Assembly: GCA_016218975.1 (NCBI GenBank) | Contig: JACRCO010000003.1 | Span: 1-51,296, forward strand | Source of the DNA: Deltaproteobacteria bacterium | Lineage (GTDB): Bacteria > Desulfobacterota > Deferrimicrobia > Deferrimicrobiales > Deferrimicrobiaceae | DNA length: 51,296 nt | Direction: 5' to 3' | Part shown: positions 8,915 through 28,917 of the stretch, piece by piece | Numbering within the stretch: the first letter of the stretch is position 1 | How the letters are laid out: each line of letters starts with the position of its first letter | The notes under the pieces: generated by a model | What the model was told of the DNA's origin: nothing | The model's input: the letters and a program-made list of their open reading frames with translations, nothing else | Database searches by the model: none | Made by a program: the position numbers and the translations under genes

Positions 8915-10111
8915 TCAGCCACTGCAGCCGGTTCCCGCGGCGACCTGCGTATAGAAACCGGCGGCCATCCGTCGGATGCGCTCACGGTCGAGGCGTTCAG
9001 CGGCAGTACGCAGATTGATCTCCGCCGCTTTGTCCACGAGTTCGTCGTCGCTCAACGCCCTCCTGAGGGCCGCCTCCACCGCCTCGGGGTCGTCCGGCGG
9101 TACGAGAAGCCCCGACTTTCCGTCCACGATCCATTCGTCGGCGCATGCGGTCCACGACTGGATCGGAAGCGACCCCATGACCATCGCTTCAAGCAGCGAA
9201 GTGCTAATGGCGTCGCTGATGCTCAAACCTATCGAGATCCTTGCCCGTCCGTGCCGGGACAGGATTTCCGCATGCGGCGTATCCTTCGGAATAAGCGTAA
9301 CAGGGATGCCCGTCGAATTCGCGAACAGCTCCGCGGCGACCGCGACGTCCGGGGTGGCCGAGTAGATCCACACCTCATATCCTGCAAGCCGGTCGGCACA
9401 CCTCTCAAGCGCGCGAAGCCCCGTCAACGCCCTTCCTCCCCAATGCTGATACCCTTTAAGCATGATCGCCCGTCGTGCAGAGGAGGGCCCATGCTGCCGG
9501 AGAGACGCAATTTCCTTCATGTCGAATCCACCGGTGTTGGGGAAAACGGGAAACACCATCCCGCCGAAGCCGAATGATTTCGCCAGGGCGACATCGCGAA
9601 GGCATTCGCAGGAGTAGTAATCGCAGGAGGAGAGAACTTCCCGTATCCTCGGAGCATGTTCCGCCAGTCTGCCGTACAGGTAAATGTCGCTGCCCCAATT
9701 CGTCACGATCCACGGGGGAAAAGACCCACCCAGCCGCCGCCGTGCTTCCAGGCTCAAATAGCCCGCATGCTGGATTTCGAGGGAGTGAACAATGTCGGGC
9801 GAAAGGCGGTCCACCAGGCGGGCGAGGCGATTCGCTTGGTGTTCCGTCCCTTCCTCCTTCAGGACCCTTCGTCGCCACATGTCCTTCGCGCGCCCCGCGA
9901 AGGAGACCCCCCGGAACCGGACGGCGTTCTGGGTTCGGGGCGGATTCCTGAATCCCGTGTGGTGCAGGGTGACGTTCCTCATGTCCGGATGTACGTCGAT
10001 CCAGGTGTCCGTACTCGGAAAGAGGTGCAGGTCCCACCCCTCATTGGCGATCTGCCCGACCCAGCGGGCCGTGTGAATGCTGTTCGCCATGGCGACGAGA
10101 AGGATACGCAT
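8915..10111 (-). CDS. GT4 family glycosyltransferase
   Basis: The 398-aa GT-B protein opens with MRILLVAMANSIHTARWV, the Rossmann start of GT4 enzymes. Its C-terminal half has the donor-binding signature SISDAISTSLLEAMVMGSLPIQSW (quoted without a break only in part: SLLEAMVMGSLPI), with the conserved Glu of E-x7-E, and then GLLVPPDDPEAVEAAL, the standard GT4 ending. The cytoplasmic face of the membrane is the expected site. The gene lies 5 nt after the previous GT4 gene, and 33 nt separate it from the next methyltransferase. Acceptor and donor are unknown. Confidence 0.85.
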   Translation of the reverse strand: MRILLVAMANSIHTARWVGQIANEGWDLHLFPSTDTWIDVHPDMRNVTLHHTGFRNPPRTQNAVRFRGVSFAGRAKDMWRRRVLKEEGTEHQANRLARLVDRLSPDIVHSLEIQHAGYLSLEARRRLGGSFPPWIVTNWGSDIYLYGRLAEHAPRIREVLSSCDYYSCECLRDVALAKSFGFGGMVFPVFPNTGGFDMKEIASLRQHGPSSARRAIMLKGYQHWGGRALTGLRALERCADRLAGYEVWIYSATPDVAVAAELFANSTGIPVTLIPKDTPHAEILSRHGRARISIGLSISDAISTSLLEAMVMGSLPIQSWTACADEWIVDGKSGLLVPPDDPEAVEAALRRALSDDELVDKAAEINLRTAAERLDRERIRRMAAGFYTQVAAGTGCSG

Positions 10112-19185: not shown

Positions 19186-19319
19186 CTCAAAATCAGGGAC
19201 GTTCTTAAAAACGTTCTTAAAAACGGGGACGTTCCCGTACTTAAAAACAGGGACGTTCCTGTTTTTAAGTACACGTCCCCGTTTTTAAGAACGTTTTTAA
19301 GAACGTCCCTGATTTTGAG
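19186..19319. repeat. 134-nt near-perfect inverted repeat (REP/BIME-like)
   Basis: The left arm begins CTCAAAATCAGGGACGTTC at 19186 and the right arm ends with its exact complement at 19319. About 62 positions pair. The only interruption is a 4-nt bulge, TCCC, at 19233-19236. The central loop is about 6 nt around GACGTT. Each arm is built from sub-repeats of GGGACGTTC and TTAAAAACG. The right arm supplies the last seven codons and the TAA stop of the DoxX gene (TQNQGRS). Similar modular hairpins occur as dispersed elements mobilised by REP-associated Y1 transposases; none is encoded in this window. Confidence 0.85.
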
Positions 19320-19716
19320 TTGCGGGATTCGACGGCTTGCATCCGAGGGAGAACTCGCCGCCGCCGGATGCGACGATCGCGAACAGCCCGCCGATGATCG
19401 CGAAGTTCTTGGCGAAGTGGGCGATCTGGGCGGCGTCGGAAAAGTTCCGGTGAAATACGAAAGTGGTCGGAACGAGGAAGAGGATCAGGGCAAGCGCGCC
19501 CAGCCTCGGGTAATACCCCAACAGTACCGAGAGCCCTCCCCCCAGCTCGAACAGGATCGCAAGGACCAGGAACAATCCGGTCGCATGCATCCCGGCGCCA
19601 GCCATGTAAGCCTGCGTCTGCTGGAAAGCGAGCACCTTCCCTGCCCCGGAATAGATGAATATGCAGGAAACAAGGATGCGGGAGACGAGCAGTCCCACGG
19701 AAACAAGGCGCTCCAT
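19297..19716 (-). CDS. DoxX family membrane protein
   Basis: The 139-aa protein has four hydrophobic segments: ERLVSVGLLVSRILVSCIF, YSGAGKVLAF, LFLVLAILFELGGGLSVLLG and LALILFLVPTTFVFH, then AHFAKNFAIIGGLFAIVASG. This is the DoxX/DoxD-like family, membrane proteins often linked to thiosulfate or thiol redox. The ATG at 19716 follows GGAGGTGA. The C-terminal seven residues (TQNQGRS) and the stop derive from the inverted repeat, suggesting that the repeat inserted into or replaced the original end of the gene. It lies 62 nt downstream of selD. Confidence 0.85.
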   Translation of the reverse strand: MERLVSVGLLVSRILVSCIFIYSGAGKVLAFQQTQAYMAGAGMHATGLFLVLAILFELGGGLSVLLGYYPRLGALALILFLVPTTFVFHRNFSDAAQIAHFAKNFAIIGGLFAIVASGGGEFSLGCKPSNPATQNQGRS

Positions 19717-19778
19717 TCCGTCACCTCCGACTGCGGGTTCGGGCCGTGGCCGCCCCCGCGAGGATGCCCCGCCGTATG

Positions 19779-20906
19779 TCACACGACCGTGATGCGCGGC
19801 ATCTCCGGCGAAGTCAGCCTGTGAGTGCGCCCTATCCACCATGACTGCTGGCCGGCTCCGGCGAGCGCACCGCGCAACGCATCCGCCCGCTCCTCCGGAA
19901 CGAACATCAGCAGCCCGCCCGAAGTCTGCGGATCGACCATCAGAAACACTTCGTCTTCGGGAAAGAGGGGGGGGAACCGAACCTTCGCCTGCTGGTGGGC
20001 GATGTTCTCCCGCGAGCTCCTCGGTATGGGATGGATGCCGAAGGTGCGATGGATCCATCCGGCCCCGGGCAACCCGCGCACCTTTTCCAGCGCCGGGCTG
20101 ATCTTCCGTTTCATCAACTCGCGCACTCCGGGGAAGACGGGAATTTCAGAATGGCGTATTTCAGCGCAAAGCCCGCTTCCCTCGAGGACCTCGAGGAGAT
20201 GGCCGAGAAGTCCGAAACCGGTGACGTCGGTCGCAGTGTGGATCTCCGCCACGCGTCCCGCCCGGGCAGCCGCCGCGTTCAGCCGTGACATCGACTCTAT
20301 AACGATGTTCTCCGTCTCCTTCGGGGCGATCCCCCATTTTATGCATGTGGTCGCCACTCCGGTACCGAGAGGCTTGGTCAATACGATGAGATCGCCCGCC
20401 TTCGCCCCACGGTTGTGCCAGATCCTGGCCGGGTTCACCCGGCCGGTGACGGAAAGTCCGAACTTCGGTTCCTTATCAGTGACCGTGTGCCCCCCGATGA
20501 TGCAGATCCCCGCTTCTTTCGCCTTGTCTGCGGCCCCGGCCATCACGTCGGAAAGCAGGGGGAGGATCTTCGAATCGTTCGGGAAGGCGGCGACCGCAAG
20601 GGCGAACAGCGGCTCGCCACCCATCGCGTAAACATCGCTCAGGGAATTGGCCGCCGCGACGGCCCCGTAGGTGTATGGATCGTCAACGATCGGAGTGAAG
20701 AAGTCCACCGTCGCGACCAGCGCCGCCCCCTCTTCGAGGAGAAAGACACCCGCATCGTCTGCATGCGAAGTCCCCACGATCACCCTCGGATCCGAGGGAG
20801 GAGGGATCGCGGAAAGCACCCGGGCAAGGACCCCTTGCCCCAGCTTCGACGCTCAGCCGGCACAGGATGACAGGTGAGTCAGGTAAATCTTCTCCCTGTC
20901 GCTCAA
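19779..20906 (-). CDS. selD: Selenide, water dikinase containing selenocysteine (in-frame UGA at 20855-20853)
   Basis: SelD makes selenophosphate from selenide and ATP, for Sec and selenouridine synthesis. Read through the TGA at 20855-20853, the N-terminus is LSDREKIYLTHLSSCAG-Sec-ASKLGQG. This puts Sec at residue 18, the active-site position where Cys or Sec occurs in the family, with the conserved Lys at 21. Then follow DDAGVFL, TVDFFTPIVDDPY, GGHTVTDKEPKFGLSVTG, TDVTGFGLLGH and DPQTSGGLL. A gene starting after the TGA (GTG, 20819) would lack the catalytic residues. I chose TTG at 20906, with GGGAG 8 nt upstream; GTG at 20912 is possible. Total length is 375 aa. A SECIS-like hairpin follows the UGA. 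Confidence 0.9.
20822..20855 (-). promoter_or_regulatory. Bacterial SECIS-like hairpin after the selD UGA
   Basis: On the minus strand the TGA (20855-20853) is followed after 12 nt by GGGCAAGG, a GGT loop, and CCTTGCCC (20840-20822). This is an 8-bp perfect stem with a 3-nt loop carrying an apical GU. Bacterial SECIS elements lie in the coding region directly after the UGA and show a short stem with a G/U apical loop bound by SelB. The spacing resembles that of E. coli fdhF. Confidence 0.75.
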
Positions 20907-21857: not shown

Positions 21858-23084
21858 ATGGCGGAAGAGAAATTGACAAATCGTTGGTTGATGGTCGCCG
21901 CGGCCCTCGTGCTGCAATTGTGCTTGGGAGTTCTCTATGCTTGGTCGGTATTCGTGGGACCGTTAAAGGCGCAGTTCGGGTACAGCGTCAAGGAAGCCAG
22001 CTACCCGTTCATGGCCTCGCTCTTCTTCTTCGCCGTGGGAATGATCTTCGCGGGAAGGTGGCAGGACAAGGCCGGTCCCCGGAAGGTCGCGATCTTCGGC
22101 GGGCTGCTGCTGGGCGCCGGCGCGATCCTCTCGGGCGTGTTGCACCCGACGGTCGGCGGGTTGGTCTTCTCTTATGGAGTCCTCGGTGGGTTGGGCGTCG
22201 GGTTCGCCTACGTGACCCCGATCGCAACCTGCATCAAGTGGTTCCCCGATATGCGCGGGACGATCACGGGCCTCGCGGTATTCGGGTTCGGCGCGGGAAC
22301 GCTGATCTTCGGACCACTCATCAACAAGCTGGTCGCCGCCCAGGGTCTCGCGACAACGTTCTACGTCCTCGGTGTGGTCTTCATCGCATGCGTCTGCGGC
22401 GCGGGCAGCATGTTCAAGGCTCCCCCGGCGGGTTACAAGCCTGCCGGCTGGAACCCCCCGGCCCCCGCGGCGGGCGTGGCGCAGAAAGCCGACTGGTCAC
22501 CGAACGAGATGATCGGCTCCGGGCAGTTCTGGCTACTGTGGATCATCTACTTCTTCGGCGCGGCCGCGGGCCTCATGATCATCGGGCAGGCGGTTCCGAT
22601 CGGGCTGGAAGTCGCCAAGCTCACCCCGGCGGTTGCGGCGGGCGGACTCGGGATCATGGCGCTCTTGAACGGCCTCGGCCGTCTGGTGCACGGGTCGATC
22701 TCAGACAAGCTGGGCCGCCAGAAGACCGTTATGCTGATGTTCGCGCAATATATGATCGCGTTCGTCCTGATCCTTCCCAATGCCGACAGCTTCATGAAGT
22801 GGCTGGTGGGGATCTGCATCGTCGGCTTCGCCTATGGGGGATACCTGGCCCTGATGCCCTCGCTCACGGCGGACTACTTCGGTACGAAGTCCCTCGGCCA
22901 GAACTACGGCTACCTGTTCACGGCGTGGGGTGTCGCCGGACTCGGTGGACCGTTCATGATCGCCTACATCAAGACGGCGACGGGCGCCGTCACGAACGCC
23001 ATGTACGCGATCACCGTGGCGTGCGTGATCGGCTTAGTGCTCTGCTTCTTCTCCAAGCGGCCGGTCTTCAAGGGAGCTGCGTAA
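21858..23084 (+). CDS. OFA-family MFS transporter (oxalate/formate antiporter-like)
   Basis: The 408-aa protein has twelve predicted membrane helices. NRWLMVAAALVLQLCLGVLY and AWSVFVGPLKAQFGYS at the start are typical of the oxalate:formate antiporter branch of the major facilitator superfamily. FAGRWQDKAGPRKV is the loop 2-3 MFS motif, and SISDKLGRQKTVMLMF is its repeat in loop 8-9. The substrate is probably a small carboxylate, but family members vary. GAAGGAGGGGTAACGA precedes the ATG. It stands alone with its own promoter and a strong intrinsic terminator. Confidence 0.85.
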   Translation: MAEEKLTNRWLMVAAALVLQLCLGVLYAWSVFVGPLKAQFGYSVKEASYPFMASLFFFAVGMIFAGRWQDKAGPRKVAIFGGLLLGAGAILSGVLHPTVGGLVFSYGVLGGLGVGFAYVTPIATCIKWFPDMRGTITGLAVFGFGAGTLIFGPLINKLVAAQGLATTFYVLGVVFIACVCGAGSMFKAPPAGYKPAGWNPPAPAAGVAQKADWSPNEMIGSGQFWLLWIIYFFGAAAGLMIIGQAVPIGLEVAKLTPAVAAGGLGIMALLNGLGRLVHGSISDKLGRQKTVMLMFAQYMIAFVLILPNADSFMKWLVGICIVGFAYGGYLALMPSLTADYFGTKSLGQNYGYLFTAWGVAGLGGPFMIAYIKTATGAVTNAMYAITVACVIGLVLCFFSKRPVFKGAA

Positions 23085-23244: not shown

Positions 23245-25110
23245 ATGAGCGTTGAACCGGGATCCTTTCTTCGCGGACTGGTCCTGTCCGACCCCCCTCC
23301 ATCGAAGGAGTTGATCCTTTCCGAACTCTCCCGCCTTGCGTCGGAGCATGTACTGTTCGGCGCCGAGGTTAACCCGGAAATCCTGAAGAAATCCGAATCC
23401 GGTTCAAAATTCCTGATAAGGGATCCTCCGCCTCACGTAAGGCAGCTCGCTCTTTGGGAGTCCTTGTTCGGCAACAGGATCTTGCCCAATCGGCTTCTCG
23501 AGCTCCTGGGGGCCAGGTTCCGCGACTTCGCGCACCGGGAGTGCATGCTGCTGTTCGCCAGGGATCGCCTCGTCTACGACACCCGGATCGTCCACGGGGA
23601 GGAGCACATCGGCGACCTGACGATGTTCCTCCGTACGGAGCATGAGCGGGGGCCGGGACTTCTCGGGCTTTTCCGGGGACGTATGCTCAAGATCGTCTTC
23701 ATCGAAAACATATCCTTAAGGGAGCAGAGCTCCGGATACGCGTCCGACCTGTTCCGCTATTACGAAGAGCTTTTCGGGAGGCTCGGCTTCCATCAATTCC
23801 GTCTTAAGGCCTCTCTCTCCGTGGGTAAATATTATTGGGCAAAAGAGGGCTTCGACTGCATGGACGGCTCCGGCGTGGAGCGGATGAAGACGGGGCTTGC
23901 CGACCTGGTTCGATCGAAGAACCTTCCTGTCAACGAATGGGAAATCGACCGGCTGAACCACGCATACGACGTCGCGCTGTTCCGGCGGGACCTGAAAATT
24001 CCCGTCTACCGGGATAAGGAGGGGTATTACGCCCTCGAAAAGGACTCCATCAATACGGAAGAGGTCCTGCTGCCGCTTGGAAAAGCATTTCTCCTCTCCT
24101 CGGACTCATGGGACGGGTACAAGGTCATCTATACCGACACTCCTCGCCGAACGGGATTCATTTATTCCGACCGGTACCTCGAGCACAGGACGCCCACAGG
24201 CCATGTCGAGCATTCCAAACGCCTGGAGGCGCTGCTGAAGGCGATCGACCGGGACGGACTCCGGGACAGCCTGGTGTTCCTGAAGCCCTACCCCGCCGAC
24301 CGGGAATTCATCGGGAAGATCCACGACGATGCCTACATCGAATCGTTCCGCGAAGCGGCGGCAAGCGGGGCAAGCCACTTCAGGACACGCGACTGCTCCC
24401 TTTCGCAGCGCAGCTACGAAGTCGCACTGCTGGCGGCAGGCGGCGTCATGGCCGGGGTCGATGCTGTGATGAACCGACGGGTGGAGAACGTCTTCTGCGC
24501 CGTACGACCGCCGGGGCACCACGCCACGCGGAACGCCGCAATGGGATTCTGCTTCATCAACAACGTGGCAGTCGGCGCCGTTTACGCCCGCGCGGCCTAC
24601 GGCGTGAAACGCATCCTCATACTCGACTGGGACGTCCATCACGGGAACGGCACCCAGGAGATCTTCGAGGAGGACCCATTCACGTATTTCCTGAGTTTTC
24701 ACGAGCATCCGACCTTCTGCTTCCCCGGCACCGGAAGGCGCATGGAGCGGGGAAAGGGGGACGGCCAGGGGGCCACCCTGAACATACCGCTTCGGCCTCA
24801 TGCGGGAGATGCGGAACTGGCCGAGCTGTTCGACAGGGAAGCCCTCCCCGAAATCGACCGGTTCCGGCCGGACCTGATCATGATCTCGGCGGGGTTCGAC
24901 GCGCACCGGGACGATCCCATCGCGGACATCGAACTGACGGACGGTTCGTTTGTGTACATGACGCGCAGGATATGCGAGGCGGCGGACCGGCATTGCGGGG
25001 GGAAAATTGTCTCCGTCCTCGAGGGGGGATATCACCGGCCGGCATTCGCCGCGTCCGTGATCGCCCACTTAAGGACGCTTCAGGGAAGGAGCGAGAACCA
25101 ACAGGTTTAA
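23245..25110 (+). CDS. GNAT-like acetyltransferase / class II histone-deacetylase-like fusion
   Basis: The 621-aa protein has two parts. Residues about 90-290 look GNAT-like: KIVFIENISLREQSSGYAS (149-167) resembles motif A (R/Q-x-x-G-x-A), and LKASLSVGKYYWAKEGFD (187-204) matches the family's following strand-loop. Residues about 300-620 are a full histone-deacetylase/AcuC/AphA domain: RPPGHHATRN (421-430, the His pair), LDWDVHHGNGTQ (460-471, charge-relay Asp and Zn ligands), ISAGFDAHRDDP (547-558, third Zn ligand) and VLEGGYH. It may act on protein acetyl-lysine, acetylpolyamines or other acetylated amines. No strong ribosome-binding site precedes the ATG. The CBS gene follows after 17 nt. 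Confidence 0.85.
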   Translation: MSVEPGSFLRGLVLSDPPPSKELILSELSRLASEHVLFGAEVNPEILKKSESGSKFLIRDPPPHVRQLALWESLFGNRILPNRLLELLGARFRDFAHRECMLLFARDRLVYDTRIVHGEEHIGDLTMFLRTEHERGPGLLGLFRGRMLKIVFIENISLREQSSGYASDLFRYYEELFGRLGFHQFRLKASLSVGKYYWAKEGFDCMDGSGVERMKTGLADLVRSKNLPVNEWEIDRLNHAYDVALFRRDLKIPVYRDKEGYYALEKDSINTEEVLLPLGKAFLLSSDSWDGYKVIYTDTPRRTGFIYSDRYLEHRTPTGHVEHSKRLEALLKAIDRDGLRDSLVFLKPYPADREFIGKIHDDAYIESFREAAASGASHFRTRDCSLSQRSYEVALLAAGGVMAGVDAVMNRRVENVFCAVRPPGHHATRNAAMGFCFINNVAVGAVYARAAYGVKRILILDWDVHHGNGTQEIFEEDPFTYFLSFHEHPTFCFPGTGRRMERGKGDGQGATLNIPLRPHAGDAELAELFDREALPEIDRFRPDLIMISAGFDAHRDDPIADIELTDGSFVYMTRRICEAADRHCGGKIVSVLEGGYHRPAFAASVIAHLRTLQGRSENQQV

Positions 25111-25127
25111 CCCGCAAGGAGGTGTTC

Positions 25128-25754
25128 ATGTTCGTCGGAAAAAGGATGACGAAGAAAGTGATCACGGTCGGGCCGGAGGATACGCTCGAACAGGCGGCCT
25201 CTCTTCTCGCCGGGCACCGGATCCACAGGCTGCCGGTGGTACGGGACGGCCGGCTCGTCGGGATCGTTTCCGACTCGGATATCCGCAACGCCGCGGTGCG
25301 TCCGGTCCAACCCGAAACGGGACCGGTGGGCTCTAAGACAGTCGGGGAGATCATGACACGCGAGGTCATCACCGTGACACCGTGGGACACGGTGGAGGAC
25401 GCCCTCCTCATCCTTCAGAAAAAACGGCTGGGAGCGCTTCCGGTCGTCGAGGGGAGCCGCGTCATCGGGATCATTACAAAAGCGGACGTGCTGGCGGCGC
25501 TCGTGGAGACGCTGGATATCGAGGGAATCGGGGCGAGGATCGAGGTCCTCCTTCCGCGGGATATCGCCTCGGTGCGGAAGCTGGTCGGCCTTATCAGCGA
25601 GAAGGGAATAGAGGTGCGAAGCATCGTCCTCGCGCCGCACAACGACCGGTTCGCCGCCTTCCTGCGCCTCGTGACGATCGACGTGCCCTCAGTCAAGGAC
25701 ACGCTCAGAAAGGCAGGCTTCACGATCGCGGAGCTGGAGGATTTCCTCGGCTGA
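25128..25754 (+). CDS. Tandem CBS-domain protein with ACT-like C-terminus
   Basis: The 208-aa protein has two CBS motifs: VGKRMTKKVITVGPEDTLEQ with HRIHRLPVV and GIVSDSDIRN, then VGEIMTREVITVTPWDTVED with LGALPVV and IIGIITKADVL (as GIITKADVL). Residues about 140-208 (DIASVRKLVGLISEKGIEV) resemble an ACT-like domain of AcuB proteins. In Bacillus the acu cluster pairs AcuB with the AcuC deacetylase. The same pairing here, with the deacetylase fusion 17 nt upstream, suggests one functional unit. CBS domains usually bind adenine nucleotides. AAGGAGGTGTTC precedes the ATG. Its last 35 nt overlap the convergent otsB gene. Confidence 0.85.
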   Translation: MFVGKRMTKKVITVGPEDTLEQAASLLAGHRIHRLPVVRDGRLVGIVSDSDIRNAAVRPVQPETGPVGSKTVGEIMTREVITVTPWDTVEDALLILQKKRLGALPVVEGSRVIGIITKADVLAALVETLDIEGIGARIEVLLPRDIASVRKLVGLISEKGIEVRSIVLAPHNDRFAAFLRLVTIDVPSVKDTLRKAGFTIAELEDFLG

Positions 25755-26535
25755 AGTCTAACCCGCATTTCTCACCAGGCTTCTGCTGCGGCGGGGGAGA
25801 ATCGGCCAACTCCCGGACGATACGGGAGAGTTCCATAGGCCCGTCCACGTGCCGGACCGCCGGAATCCTGATACTGTTCCCGACCGCGACCGCGATCCCG
25901 TTCTTCGAGATGACCCACCGCATCGCCGCTGCGTCGTTTTCGTCGTCTCCCGCATAGAAGATGCTTCCGCAGGACGGATCGAACTTCAGTATCCCGCAAA
26001 GCCTGCGTATCCCGAACGACTTGGCGGCGGAACGAAGGAACTGCACTTCGGCAACCGCAGGTCCCTCGAAGACGCGGATTCCAGGAAGTTTTTTGAGACC
26101 GTGGATCATCGATGGCAAACGATACCGCTCGCCGGGCGAAATTCGGCGGAAGTGAACCGCGACGGACCAACGTTTGTCTTCCAGTTCCACCCCCGGTAAT
26201 GCCGAAAGCCTGGCGAGGGCGGGAAAGACAGCCCCCCGAGTCTTCTCCAGTTTTTTTTGAGCGTCTTTTCCGGGGAGAACCCTGCGGTCATCCGGAAGAC
26301 GCCATTCCAGTCCGCTCCCACCGCCCAGGAACAGATCAGGGAGCGGGACCCTGCGGGCAAGGTCCTCGAGGGAGCGGCTCGAAAGAACTGCGACCTGGTT
26401 CCGGGGGTCGGCTGCAAGCCGTTTCAGCAGGGAGCGGGACGCCTGGTGCAACCGGGCCGCGTTCCTGTCGGGAACCAGCGGCGAGAGGGTTCCGTCGAAA
26501 TCGAAGACCCACAGCCGCCGGGCGCCGGAATTCAA
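25720..26535 (-). CDS. otsB: Trehalose-6-phosphate phosphatase
   Basis: The 271-aa HAD-superfamily phosphatase has WVFDFDGTLSPLVPDRNAA (motif I, DxDGT), VAVLSSRSLEDL (motif II), and IFYAGDDENDAAAMRW (motif IV). These fit OtsB, which dephosphorylates trehalose-6-phosphate. I place the start at the TTG at 26535, which overlaps the otsA stop as TTGA and gives a normal length. The frame upstream of it lies inside otsA and has no similarity. The last residues (QQKPGEKCGLDF) are encoded by a dispersed repeat at 25759-25783, and the gene's 3' end overlaps the convergent CBS gene. Confidence 0.9.
   Translation of the reverse strand: MNSGARRLWVFDFDGTLSPLVPDRNAARLHQASRSLLKRLAADPRNQVAVLSSRSLEDLARRVPLPDLFLGGGSGLEWRLPDDRRVLPGKDAQKKLEKTRGAVFPALARLSALPGVELEDKRWSVAVHFRRISPGERYRLPSMIHGLKKLPGIRVFEGPAVAEVQFLRSAAKSFGIRRLCGILKFDPSCGSIFYAGDDENDAAAMRWVISKNGIAVAVGNSIRIPAVRHVDGPMELSRIVRELADSPPPQQKPGEKCGLDFSRGNPPAPRS
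25759..25783. repeat. Dispersed 25-nt repeat, copy 1 (TAACCCGCATTTCTCA type)
   Basis: TAACCCGCATTTCTCACCAGG followed by CTTC is nearly identical to the sequence at 37713-37737, with two differences. It lies just after the CBS stop codon and inside the 3' end of otsB. (Core motif: TAACCCGCATTTCTCA.). Confidence 0.65.
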
Positions 26536-28766
26536 TTGATAGACTCCCGCAGCCTGCCCCGTTTGCGCATACCGGCGGCATCCAATAGCATGCGGCCCGC
26601 CCAGCGGTAGACGTTGAATTCGCTGATCAACCCCCGCATGATGCGCATTCGGTCGCGCTGCTCGGTGGCGGGCATCGTAAGCGCGAGATGGAACGCCGCA
26701 GCGCACTGATCGATATCGTAAGGGTTGACCAGCAGCGCCTCCGGCAGTTCACGCGACGCCCCCGTAAACCGGCTGAGTATCAGCACGCCCCGGTCGTCGT
26801 CGCGGGAAGCCAGGAACTCCTTCGCCACCAGGTTCATGCCGTCGTGAAGGCTGCTCACGCAGCACACTTCCGCCGCCCGGTAGTGCTCGTAGACGGCGGG
26901 CGGCTCGTGGTGCTCCACCTTCAGGACGATGGGCGGCGTGCCTCCCTTCGAGAAGCGCCTGTTGATCTTTTCCGCCAACGCGCGGACGCGCACATCGAAT
27001 TCCCGGTACTCCTCGATCCTCGAACGGCTGGGCGCCGCGATCTGGATGAAGCTGAACCGCCCGATCCAGCGCGGCTCCATCTCGAGCAGCCGCTCGATCG
27101 CGAGAAACCGCTCGACGATCCCCTTGGTGTAGTCGAGCCTGTCCACGCCGATGCCGAGGAATTGGTCCGGCGGCAGACCGTTGTGGATGCGAACGTCGGT
27201 GCGGCACTCCGCGACCGGCTTTCCGGTCAGTTCCTCGCCCGGGGGCCATTCGATCGAGATCGGGTACCGCTTGACGGCGGTGGGCTTGCCGCCGTAGACG
27301 ACCTCGAACGTTTCACGGTTTACGCGGGCTTCCAGCGTACGGTCCACGGTGTCGAGGAAGTTGTTGCAATGGAACCTGGTGTGGAAACCGAGAATGCTGC
27401 TTCCGAGCAGTCCGTCGAGCAGTTCCTCCTTCCAGGGGCAGATCGCGAACGTTTCCGGGTTCGGCCAGGGTATGTGCCAGAAGGTGATGACTGTGGCGTC
27501 CGGCATCTTCTCCCGTATCATGCGGGGGAGAAGGGCGAAATGATAATCCTGTACAAGGACGATCGGGTCGGCTGTCTTGCTTTCCTCGAAGACTGCGTCC
27601 GCGAATTTTCTGTTCACCTCGGTATACTGTTTCAGGTCGTTGGCGCGGAATACCGGGCGGACATGCGCAATGTGGCACAAAGGCCACAGCCCTTCGTTGG
27701 AGAAGCCGAAATAATGGCCCGCCTCCTCCTCTTCCGTCAGCCATACGCGGCGGAGGCTGTAGGACGGTTTTCCCGGGGGAACCGCGATGCGGCCGAAGGA
27801 GTCCACCGTCTCGCGGTCGGCCGATCCGCTGCCGTGGGCGATCCACGTCCCCGAGCAGGCGCGTACTACCGGTTCGAGGGCGGTAACAAGTCCGCTTGCC
27901 GGACGCGACACCACGATGCGTCCGTCGCGGCGTATATGTAGGTACGGCTCCCGGTTGGATACGACGAGGACATCCTCTCCGCGAAGATCGTTTCGAAGGA
28001 TGGCACGCAACGCATCCGGGGACCAGGTGATCTGGCTTTCGTCGCGGGCGCGGAACTCGGATTCCATGTCGCGTATGATCGTACGCAGATCGCTTTCGAT
28101 AGGTGCCAGCTCGGGGGCCGTCGCTTCCGGCGCCGCCGACGGAGGATCGGCAACGGACGGCCGCAGCAACCCCTCTCCCCGCAGCAGGGCGCGGACACCT
28201 CTCACCCATCCGCGCCAACTAAGCTCCGCGATCGCCACCGTGATAAGCGACACGATCACGCCGAGTCCGATGAAAAAGTAGAACACATACCTCTTGGTCT
28301 CCTCGCTGCGGCGCTGCACGAAGCTCATGTCGTGGACCAGGACAAGATTGCCGACCTTCAAGCCATCCATCTCGATTCCTACGACCGCCACGTGCAGCGG
28401 GCCTTTTTGGCTCTGGAGAAGTTTTTGCGAAGGATCGGCGAACCTGTCGAGATTAACGCAGCCTATCTCGCCGGGAAACGTCGCAGTGGCGATCGGCGGG
28501 CCGCCCGATGCATTGCAGTACCCCAGCGCATATAAACGTTCGTCCAATGTGATCTTGTTGAATAGATTGAGCGTCTTGTCTATCGACCCCGCGCTCAGCG
28601 AATCCCGGATCGAATCGTGGATGGCGTTGGCCACCAGGTTCGACCTCATGTCCATGTCGCGCACGGACCAGCGCAGCGTCAGCCGGTCCACCAGCGGCAC
28701 GACCGCATAAGCGATTGTCGCGAGGGCAAGCAACAGTGGAACAATAAAACGCAGGGAAAAACGCAC
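26532..28766 (-). CDS. otsA: Membrane-anchored trehalose-6-phosphate synthase (GT20)
   Basis: The 744-aa protein has a hydrophobic helix at about 6-26, an extracytoplasmic region of about 130 residues, a second helix at about 160-182 ([20 protein letters not shown]), a Pro/Ala-rich linker, and a GT20 domain from about 265 to the end. GT20 marks are [50 protein letters not shown] and [18 protein letters not shown]. It makes trehalose-6-phosphate from UDP-glucose and glucose-6-phosphate. The GTG at 28766 has AGGAGAT 5 nt upstream. A longer frame to 28850 has no such site. The usual OtsA (about 470 aa) lacks the N-terminal membrane module, which looks like a two-helix sensor. Confidence 0.9.
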
Positions 28767-28917
28767 TTCATCTCCTGTGAAGCGCTGCGGATGTTTGTAT
28801 GACGTCACGGGGTGCAAGTACGTTTCAACCCCCGGCACCTGAGGCGCCATTGCCGTACGGAAGGCTCACCTTCGGGGACGAATATTCTGTATCCTGATCA
28901 ACATGCGCAGGAGACTT

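Follow-up and report, generated by a model that had tools for sequence, protein, structure and literature searches.

Can a single polypeptide hold both a writer and an eraser of lysine acetylation? The lysine acetylation switches known to us use separate writer and eraser proteins. The question is raised by a gene at 23245..25110 (+ strand) in a 51,296-nucleotide stretch of DNA from a deltaproteobacterium (the window), for which a preliminary description had proposed a GNAT-like domain and a histone deacetylase (HDAC) domain in one chain, followed by an AcuB-like protein.

The fusion gene and its surroundings

The open frame encodes 621 amino acids, of which approximately residues 21-300 make up the N-domain. 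This begins with a family-specific, partly structured subdomain (residues 21-94; 23305..23526, +) that carries an FGAEVNP...KK motif and eight columns invariant in the alignment of the fusion family, and is modelled by AF2 as helices and short strands. It is followed by a GNAT-like core (residues 95-204; 23527..23856, +) comprising four strands, the loop Q161-S-S-G-Y-A166, a helix (165-179), a further strand (184-188) and the motif GKYYWAKEGFD. Residues 205-300 (23857..24144, +) form helices and then an LGKAFLL..WDGYKVIYT motif, shared in part with a phage relative described below. The HDAC domain (PF00850) occupies residues 301-615 (24145..25089, +). The same in-frame junction between GNAT-like and HDAC parts is present in 15/15 near-full-length members of the family, and the proposed single polypeptide is therefore not a sequencing artefact.

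Seventeen base pairs past the fusion stop codon, and preceded by a ribosome-binding site read from the sequence (AAGGAGG, 25116..25122, +), starts an AcuB-like gene (25128..25754, +). No separate GNAT that could serve as an AcuA-type partner was recognised at the locus beside the fusion gene. On the other side, 160 bp upstream, lies an MFS transporter of the SfMCT L-lactate family (21858..23084, +; NF049980, 427.7 bits against a cut-off of 320). It is found near the fusion in several genomes, not most, and we rejected it as an operon partner, its position and orientation varying among fusion genomes; it is probably only loosely linked to the fusion and in a separate operon. Elsewhere in the window we noted trehalose-6-phosphate phosphatase and synthase genes (25720-26706 and 26532-28850, both -), the synthase having an N-terminal extension of about 290 amino acids ahead of its glycosyltransferase domain, and a SelD-like frame with a GTG start (19779-20819, -) overlapping a DoxX-like frame (19297-20058).

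A class II-like deacetylase half

Residues 320-611 match PF00850 with an E-value of 1.7e-95. The catalytic H425 and H426, the zinc residues D463, H465 and D552, and Y596 do not vary among the window's protein and 14 homologues (15/15), in line with the earlier claim of a complete catalytic and Zn set. Both by sequence and by fold, the best PDB matches are HDAC6, HdaH of Pseudomonas and Klebsiella, HDAC10, HDAC4 and Hda1. In the classification of Graf et al. 2024 (PMC11532494), HdaH-type enzymes form cluster 1, while Bacillus AcuC falls with class I in cluster 2c. Judged from its sequence, the HDAC half is a class II (HdaH/HDAC6-like) enzyme and not a class I AcuC, the two being set apart here via these published clusters. 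The AcuC label of the preliminary description is thus wrong in detail. The bacterial class II enzymes of cluster 1 share the catalytic set with the fusion, which differs from HdaH in its additional 300-residue N-terminal GNAT-like domain and its paired acuB.

GNAT likeness of the N-domain

A hallmark of GNATs is an acetyl-CoA loop of the form [Q/R]-x-x-G-x-[G/A] between strand 4 and helix 3. The preliminary description had noted a GNAT-like acetyl-CoA motif; the QSSGYA loop of the N-domain is conserved as [QR]-[SA]-[ST]-G-Y-A in 15/15 members: Arg replaces Gln161 in one, and the loop otherwise varies by S/A and S/T alone. Together with the conserved GKYYWAKEGFD that comes after it, the loop lies in the most conserved block of the protein (residues 161-204, 90% mean identity, 29/44 positions invariant), compared with 88% mean identity and 26/50 invariant positions for the HH/DxH block of the HDAC. 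With dN/dS values of 0.09-0.28 in close pairs, the GNAT core is under purifying selection.

Database models recognise this likeness weakly. Against Pfam and NCBIfam the window's own N-half gave no GNAT match (a tRNA-synthetase match at 0.013-0.063 was at chance level and was discarded), and no family member listed reaches the cut-off of any Pfam GNAT model. The IDM1_C GNAT model is matched weakly by 8/16 members (best E 0.0025) and Acetyltransf_10 by 2/16 (best 0.15); the family consensus scores 12-16 bits on GNAT models whose cut-offs are 23.6-33. Profile-profile alignment by hhalign against 30 GNATs from related genomes gave a score of 25.1 (P 0.006) in the right register, and one of 200 column shuffles scored as high. 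A PDB sequence search with the N-domain profile returned no real match. In the profile alignment, Trp198 stands at the position usually taken by the general-acid Tyr and is invariant in every member, as are Tyr196 and Tyr197 just before it. This Tyr in helix 4 is common among GNATs, not universal.

Structure prediction for residues 1-300, the check that had been proposed, gave an AF2 model with a mean pLDDT of 78.5 (78.8 for the whole chain), resting on 15-16 sequences. Strands are predicted at 95-104, 108-117, 120-133, 147-158 and 184-188, with a helix at 165-179 and a short helix near 194-201; this order of elements is that of GNATs, and the acetyl-CoA loop lies between strand 147-158 and helix 165-179, again as in GNATs. 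A Foldseek search of the PDB returned GNAT acetyltransferases as 48 of the best 50 matches and isocitrate lyase 2 as the other two, with probabilities of up to 1.00 and a best E of 1.5e-3, no PDB match falling below E 1e-3. The TM-scores against GNATs stay low, not exceeding about 0.44 when taken by target length, with some 85 residues superposed where the rmsd is good, and the model is weak at residues 191-210 (pLDDT 43-59 by block), adjoining the most conserved stretch. The preliminary description had named a model lacking the GNAT fold or the acetyl-CoA loop as evidence against its proposal; since the predicted fold is GNAT-like and the loop lies where a GNAT loop lies, the proposal holds in this respect. 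On good but incomplete evidence, the N-domain is thus predicted to be GNAT-like with a kept acetyl-CoA loop.

Phage proteins as the nearest relatives

Our deep search for N-domain relatives covered the phylum together with phage and plasmid collections. The nearest relatives by sequence are phage proteins without assigned function. PHROG 25452 matches 15/16 fusion family members (best E 8.2e-7), and the fusion-family profile aligns to 135 residues of a 419-residue protein of Exiguobacterium phage vB_EalM-132 (AYP68572.1; L153:1670-2929). The latter has the loop QGKGIA, the motif SVGVYAWARKGYD and LGKAF, and weakly matches two Pfam GNAT models over the stretch aligned to the N-domain, providing a second link between the window's N-domain and GNATs. 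The phage proteins of PHROG 25452 and 27103 resemble the N-domain in the loop, a GxYxWAxxG motif and the LGKAF motif, but in contrast to the fusion no HDAC was found in them. A weaker profile match is to the N-terminal part of the head-morphogenesis protein of Alteromonas phage R7M (L151:2180-4093), where it stands before the head-morphogenesis domain. Matches by tblastn to Lactococcus phage KSY1 gp034 and to a Polaromonas phage were judged to be chance; scanning IMG/VR with the N-domain profile confirmed no relative, and the plasmid collection held none. Because of Trp198 and of these phage relatives, catalysis by the N-domain cannot be claimed, and its suggested role as a writer is a putative one.

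Distribution and origin of the fusion

Homologues of the fusion occur in 17/59 related genomes. One relative is a Deltaproteobacteria MAG from groundwater. Across the phylum the N-domain is present in 13 of 395 sampled genomes, all in two families of the window's class, and among these 395 none has an N-domain without an HDAC, save for pieces at contig ends. Scanning the genome collection with the single N-half recovered only one relative, since the short patterns used were overly strict.

A tree of 41 HDAC domains groups the 15 fusions in a single clade (support 99/97). The clade neighbouring them consists of stand-alone HDACs of the same class, and one long-branched HDAC from another family stands beside the fusions. 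The window's genome itself has a stand-alone HDAC, 50% identical to that of the fusion; on contig C53 a stand-alone class II HDAC gene (L057:8003-8953) is followed by an AcuB paralogue (8978-9637). The tree fits a single origin of the fusion, which would have followed the ancient duplication of a paired HDAC and acuB. Some stand-alone HDACs have long N-terminal extensions; these were dismissed as candidate N-domains, as they resemble open frame lying ahead of the start, and in the genomes concerned the N-domain profile finds one copy each.

A second, unrelated GNAT-HDAC family

The architecture had been called unusual. This is right only in part: a GNAT at the N-terminus of an unrelated fusion with an HDAC is present in 37/395 phylum genomes (about 9%). 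The loci of this second family (L121, L132-L150 and, in genome G008, L043:3835-5958, +) encode HDACs of the polyamine-deacetylase type, and 19 of 20 loci read hold GNAT and HDAC in one open frame. Most frames are 586-612 amino acids long, and four, of 733-750 amino acids, have an extra C-terminal stretch. In L121 (952-3213, -) the order is GNAT, polyamine-deacetylase type HDAC and a second GNAT (PF13508, 1.1e-21), three more genomes having a frame of equal length; the closest solved HDACs to L121 are acetylpolyamine amidohydrolases. In G008, about 1.4 kb separates the copy from the acuB and window-type fusion of that genome.

Like the window's protein, the second-family fusions, of about 590-610 amino acids, place a GNAT ahead of an HDAC in one chain. 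They differ in that the GNAT is an ordinary one (hhalign probability 97% against ordinary GNATs, with an FYE motif), the HDAC is of the polyamine-deacetylase type and some have a second, C-terminal GNAT. Comparison of their GNAT with the window's N-domain gave no match. The joining of GNAT and HDAC thus recurs, and the second family in the same phylum suggests that the pairing is useful and no accident. We found no description of either fusion in the open literature, a scope that leaves most subscription journals and all preprints outside.

An AcuB-like partner

The gene following the fusion encodes 208 amino acids with two CBS domains and an ACT-like tail (PF00571 twice, E 1.2e-33; ACT weak on its own, 0.072), and the protein aligns over nearly its full length with Geobacillus AcuB (9s4w, 2e-25) and with TTHA0829 (5awe), as its earlier naming as an AcuB-like CBS/ACT protein implied. 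It is adjacent in 14/15 testable fusion loci. An acuB paralogue likewise follows 18/18 stand-alone HDACs of the window's class, and 0/8 HDACs outside it.

In Bacilli, AcuB inhibits the HDAC AcuC and is tuned by AMP or Ap4A (PMC13121692, PMC13039410), and by analogy the AcuB-like protein probably inhibits the HDAC half. Arg33 of Bacillus AcuB is essential for Ap4A binding (PMC13039410). Of 13 AcuBs linked to fusions and aligned here, 12 have His and one has Gln at position 33, and position 34 is mostly His, with Arg in the window's group; since Arg33 is not kept, the ligand may differ.

The locus resembles Bacillus acuABC (AcuA a GNAT, AcuB a CBS-ACT inhibitor, AcuC a deacetylase) in bringing a GNAT-like part, a deacetylase and an AcuB-like protein together in a short operon. 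It departs from it in that the GNAT part is fused to the deacetylase, the deacetylase is of class II and not a class I AcuC, AcuB Arg33 is not kept, and no canonical acsA was found in the window's genome. Of the proposal that acuABC had collapsed into two genes, the AcuB-like neighbour and the GNAT-like part therefore survive, but with a class II HDAC half the resemblance is one of analogy, not descent.

Candidate substrates of the deacetylase

Assays on acetyl-CoA synthetase had been suggested, but this enzyme is unlikely to be the substrate in its usual form: neither the window's genome (97.6% complete) nor 17 relatives has a match to canonical AcsA (TIGR02188) over the cut-off. The best match in the window's genome scores 246 bits against a cut-off of 724.95, which was passed by 7/14 control genomes. 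This best match is a 548-residue AMP-forming ligase ending in DAMPRTAVGKLLRR, with the PRTAVGK motif, whose lysine is an acetylation site in AMP-forming ligases (PMC11532494). Two sister-family genomes encode another HDAC about 120-130 bp after an AMP-forming acyl-CoA ligase (G025:C45:13985-16513 and G024:C2:36225-38746), a likely ligase-deacetylase pair. A precedent is LdaA of Rhodopseudomonas palustris, likened to the window's HDAC by description: this Zn-dependent deacetylase acts on BadA and many other acyl-CoA ligases, reversing their acetylation, but its partners RpPat and KatA are separate acetyltransferases (PMC6640162). A further candidate, for a Pat-like writer bearing a GNAT, was ADP-forming acetyl-CoA synthetase. 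Homologues of it are present, but the one read showed no GNAT by eye at its end, and this candidate was set aside. With no canonical AcsA, a PRTAVGK ligase, ligase-adjacent HDACs and the LdaA precedent, acyl-CoA ligases are by analogy the most likely substrates of the HDAC half.

Discussion

The analysis shows one chain, an intact HDAC active site, a predicted GNAT-like fold with a conserved acetyl-CoA loop and a conserved pairing with acuB. We propose, with a probability of roughly 0.6, that the fusion acts as a class II, Zn-dependent deacylase of lysines to which an acyl-CoA-binding domain of GNAT type is attached, under the control of AcuB. The HDAC half would take acetyl or acyl groups off lysines, those of AMP-forming acyl-CoA ligases being the most likely, and the GNAT-type domain would bind acetyl-CoA or another acyl-CoA. 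The CBS pair of AcuB would bind adenine nucleotides and its ACT domain would block the HDAC pocket, in the way shown for Bacillus AcuC. The part of this reading that concerns AcuB is weighed down by the window's HDAC being of class II, since to our knowledge AcuB inhibition is known for class I AcuC only.

What the attached domain does with an acyl-CoA can be seen in two ways, the first slightly ahead. The GNAT domain may acetylate substrate lysines that the HDAC half deacetylates, AcuB and the level of acetyl-CoA setting the balance. This is a serious candidate, if short of an even chance. The acetyl-CoA loop is conserved and lies inside the most conserved block, no AcuA-type partner gene was recognised at the locus, and an unrelated HDAC class has been fused to an ordinary GNAT with its FYE motif, so that the joining recurs. 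Against this, Trp198 occupies the general-acid Tyr position, no GNAT model is matched over its cut-off and the phage homologues have no known activity.

Alternatively, a GNAT-like domain without catalysis may bind acyl-CoA and tune the attached deacylase up or down allosterically. Replacement of the catalytic Tyr by Trp while the loop is kept argues for such a sensor, which we hold as a tentative alternative. It has a precedent in Mycobacterium tuberculosis ICL2, itself among the fold matches: this enzyme is activated by acetyl-CoA, and its C-terminal domain resembles GNATs without being homologous in sequence (PMC6788997). Like the fusion, ICL2 is a metabolic enzyme carrying a GNAT-like domain whose sequence shows no clear homology; it differs in being an isocitrate lyase with that domain at the C-terminus. 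YYWAKEGFD is more strongly conserved than seems needed for binding alone, but since the phage relative shares most of this motif it may be a hallmark of the family whether the domain writes or senses.

An unlikely third reading makes the N-domain a phage-related, GNAT-derived fold that docks onto protein partners or substrates and does not bind acyl-CoA. It would suit the phage nearest relatives (the PHROG 25452 matches and the 135 residues aligned in the Exiguobacterium phage protein) and the weaker match in the N-terminal part of the Alteromonas phage head-morphogenesis protein, but both the bacterial family and the Exiguobacterium phage retain the consensus of the acyl-CoA loop. That two neighbouring genes were joined artificially, through a frameshift or an assembly error, has a negligible chance of being right, as nothing was found in its favour, it is already refuted by the one in-frame junction common to 15 members from different genera and two families, and the fusion HDACs form a single, well supported clade.

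Returning to the acyl-CoA-binding deacylase under AcuB control, its furthest-reaching form would be a single chain that writes and erases lysine acetylation on shared targets, with the acetyl-CoA input built in and AcuB as an external, adenylate-sensing brake. We regard this form as possible but rather doubtful. If true, it would amount to a complete acetylation switch in two genes, made by way of an acetyltransferase-like domain family for which the other relatives detected are phage proteins. The GNAT-like/HDAC chain and AcuB together give a compact system, with writing or sensing, erasing and control by adenylates accessible in two proteins. AcuB control would reach beyond class I to class II deacetylases, and a phage protein domain without an assigned role would be given a possible function.
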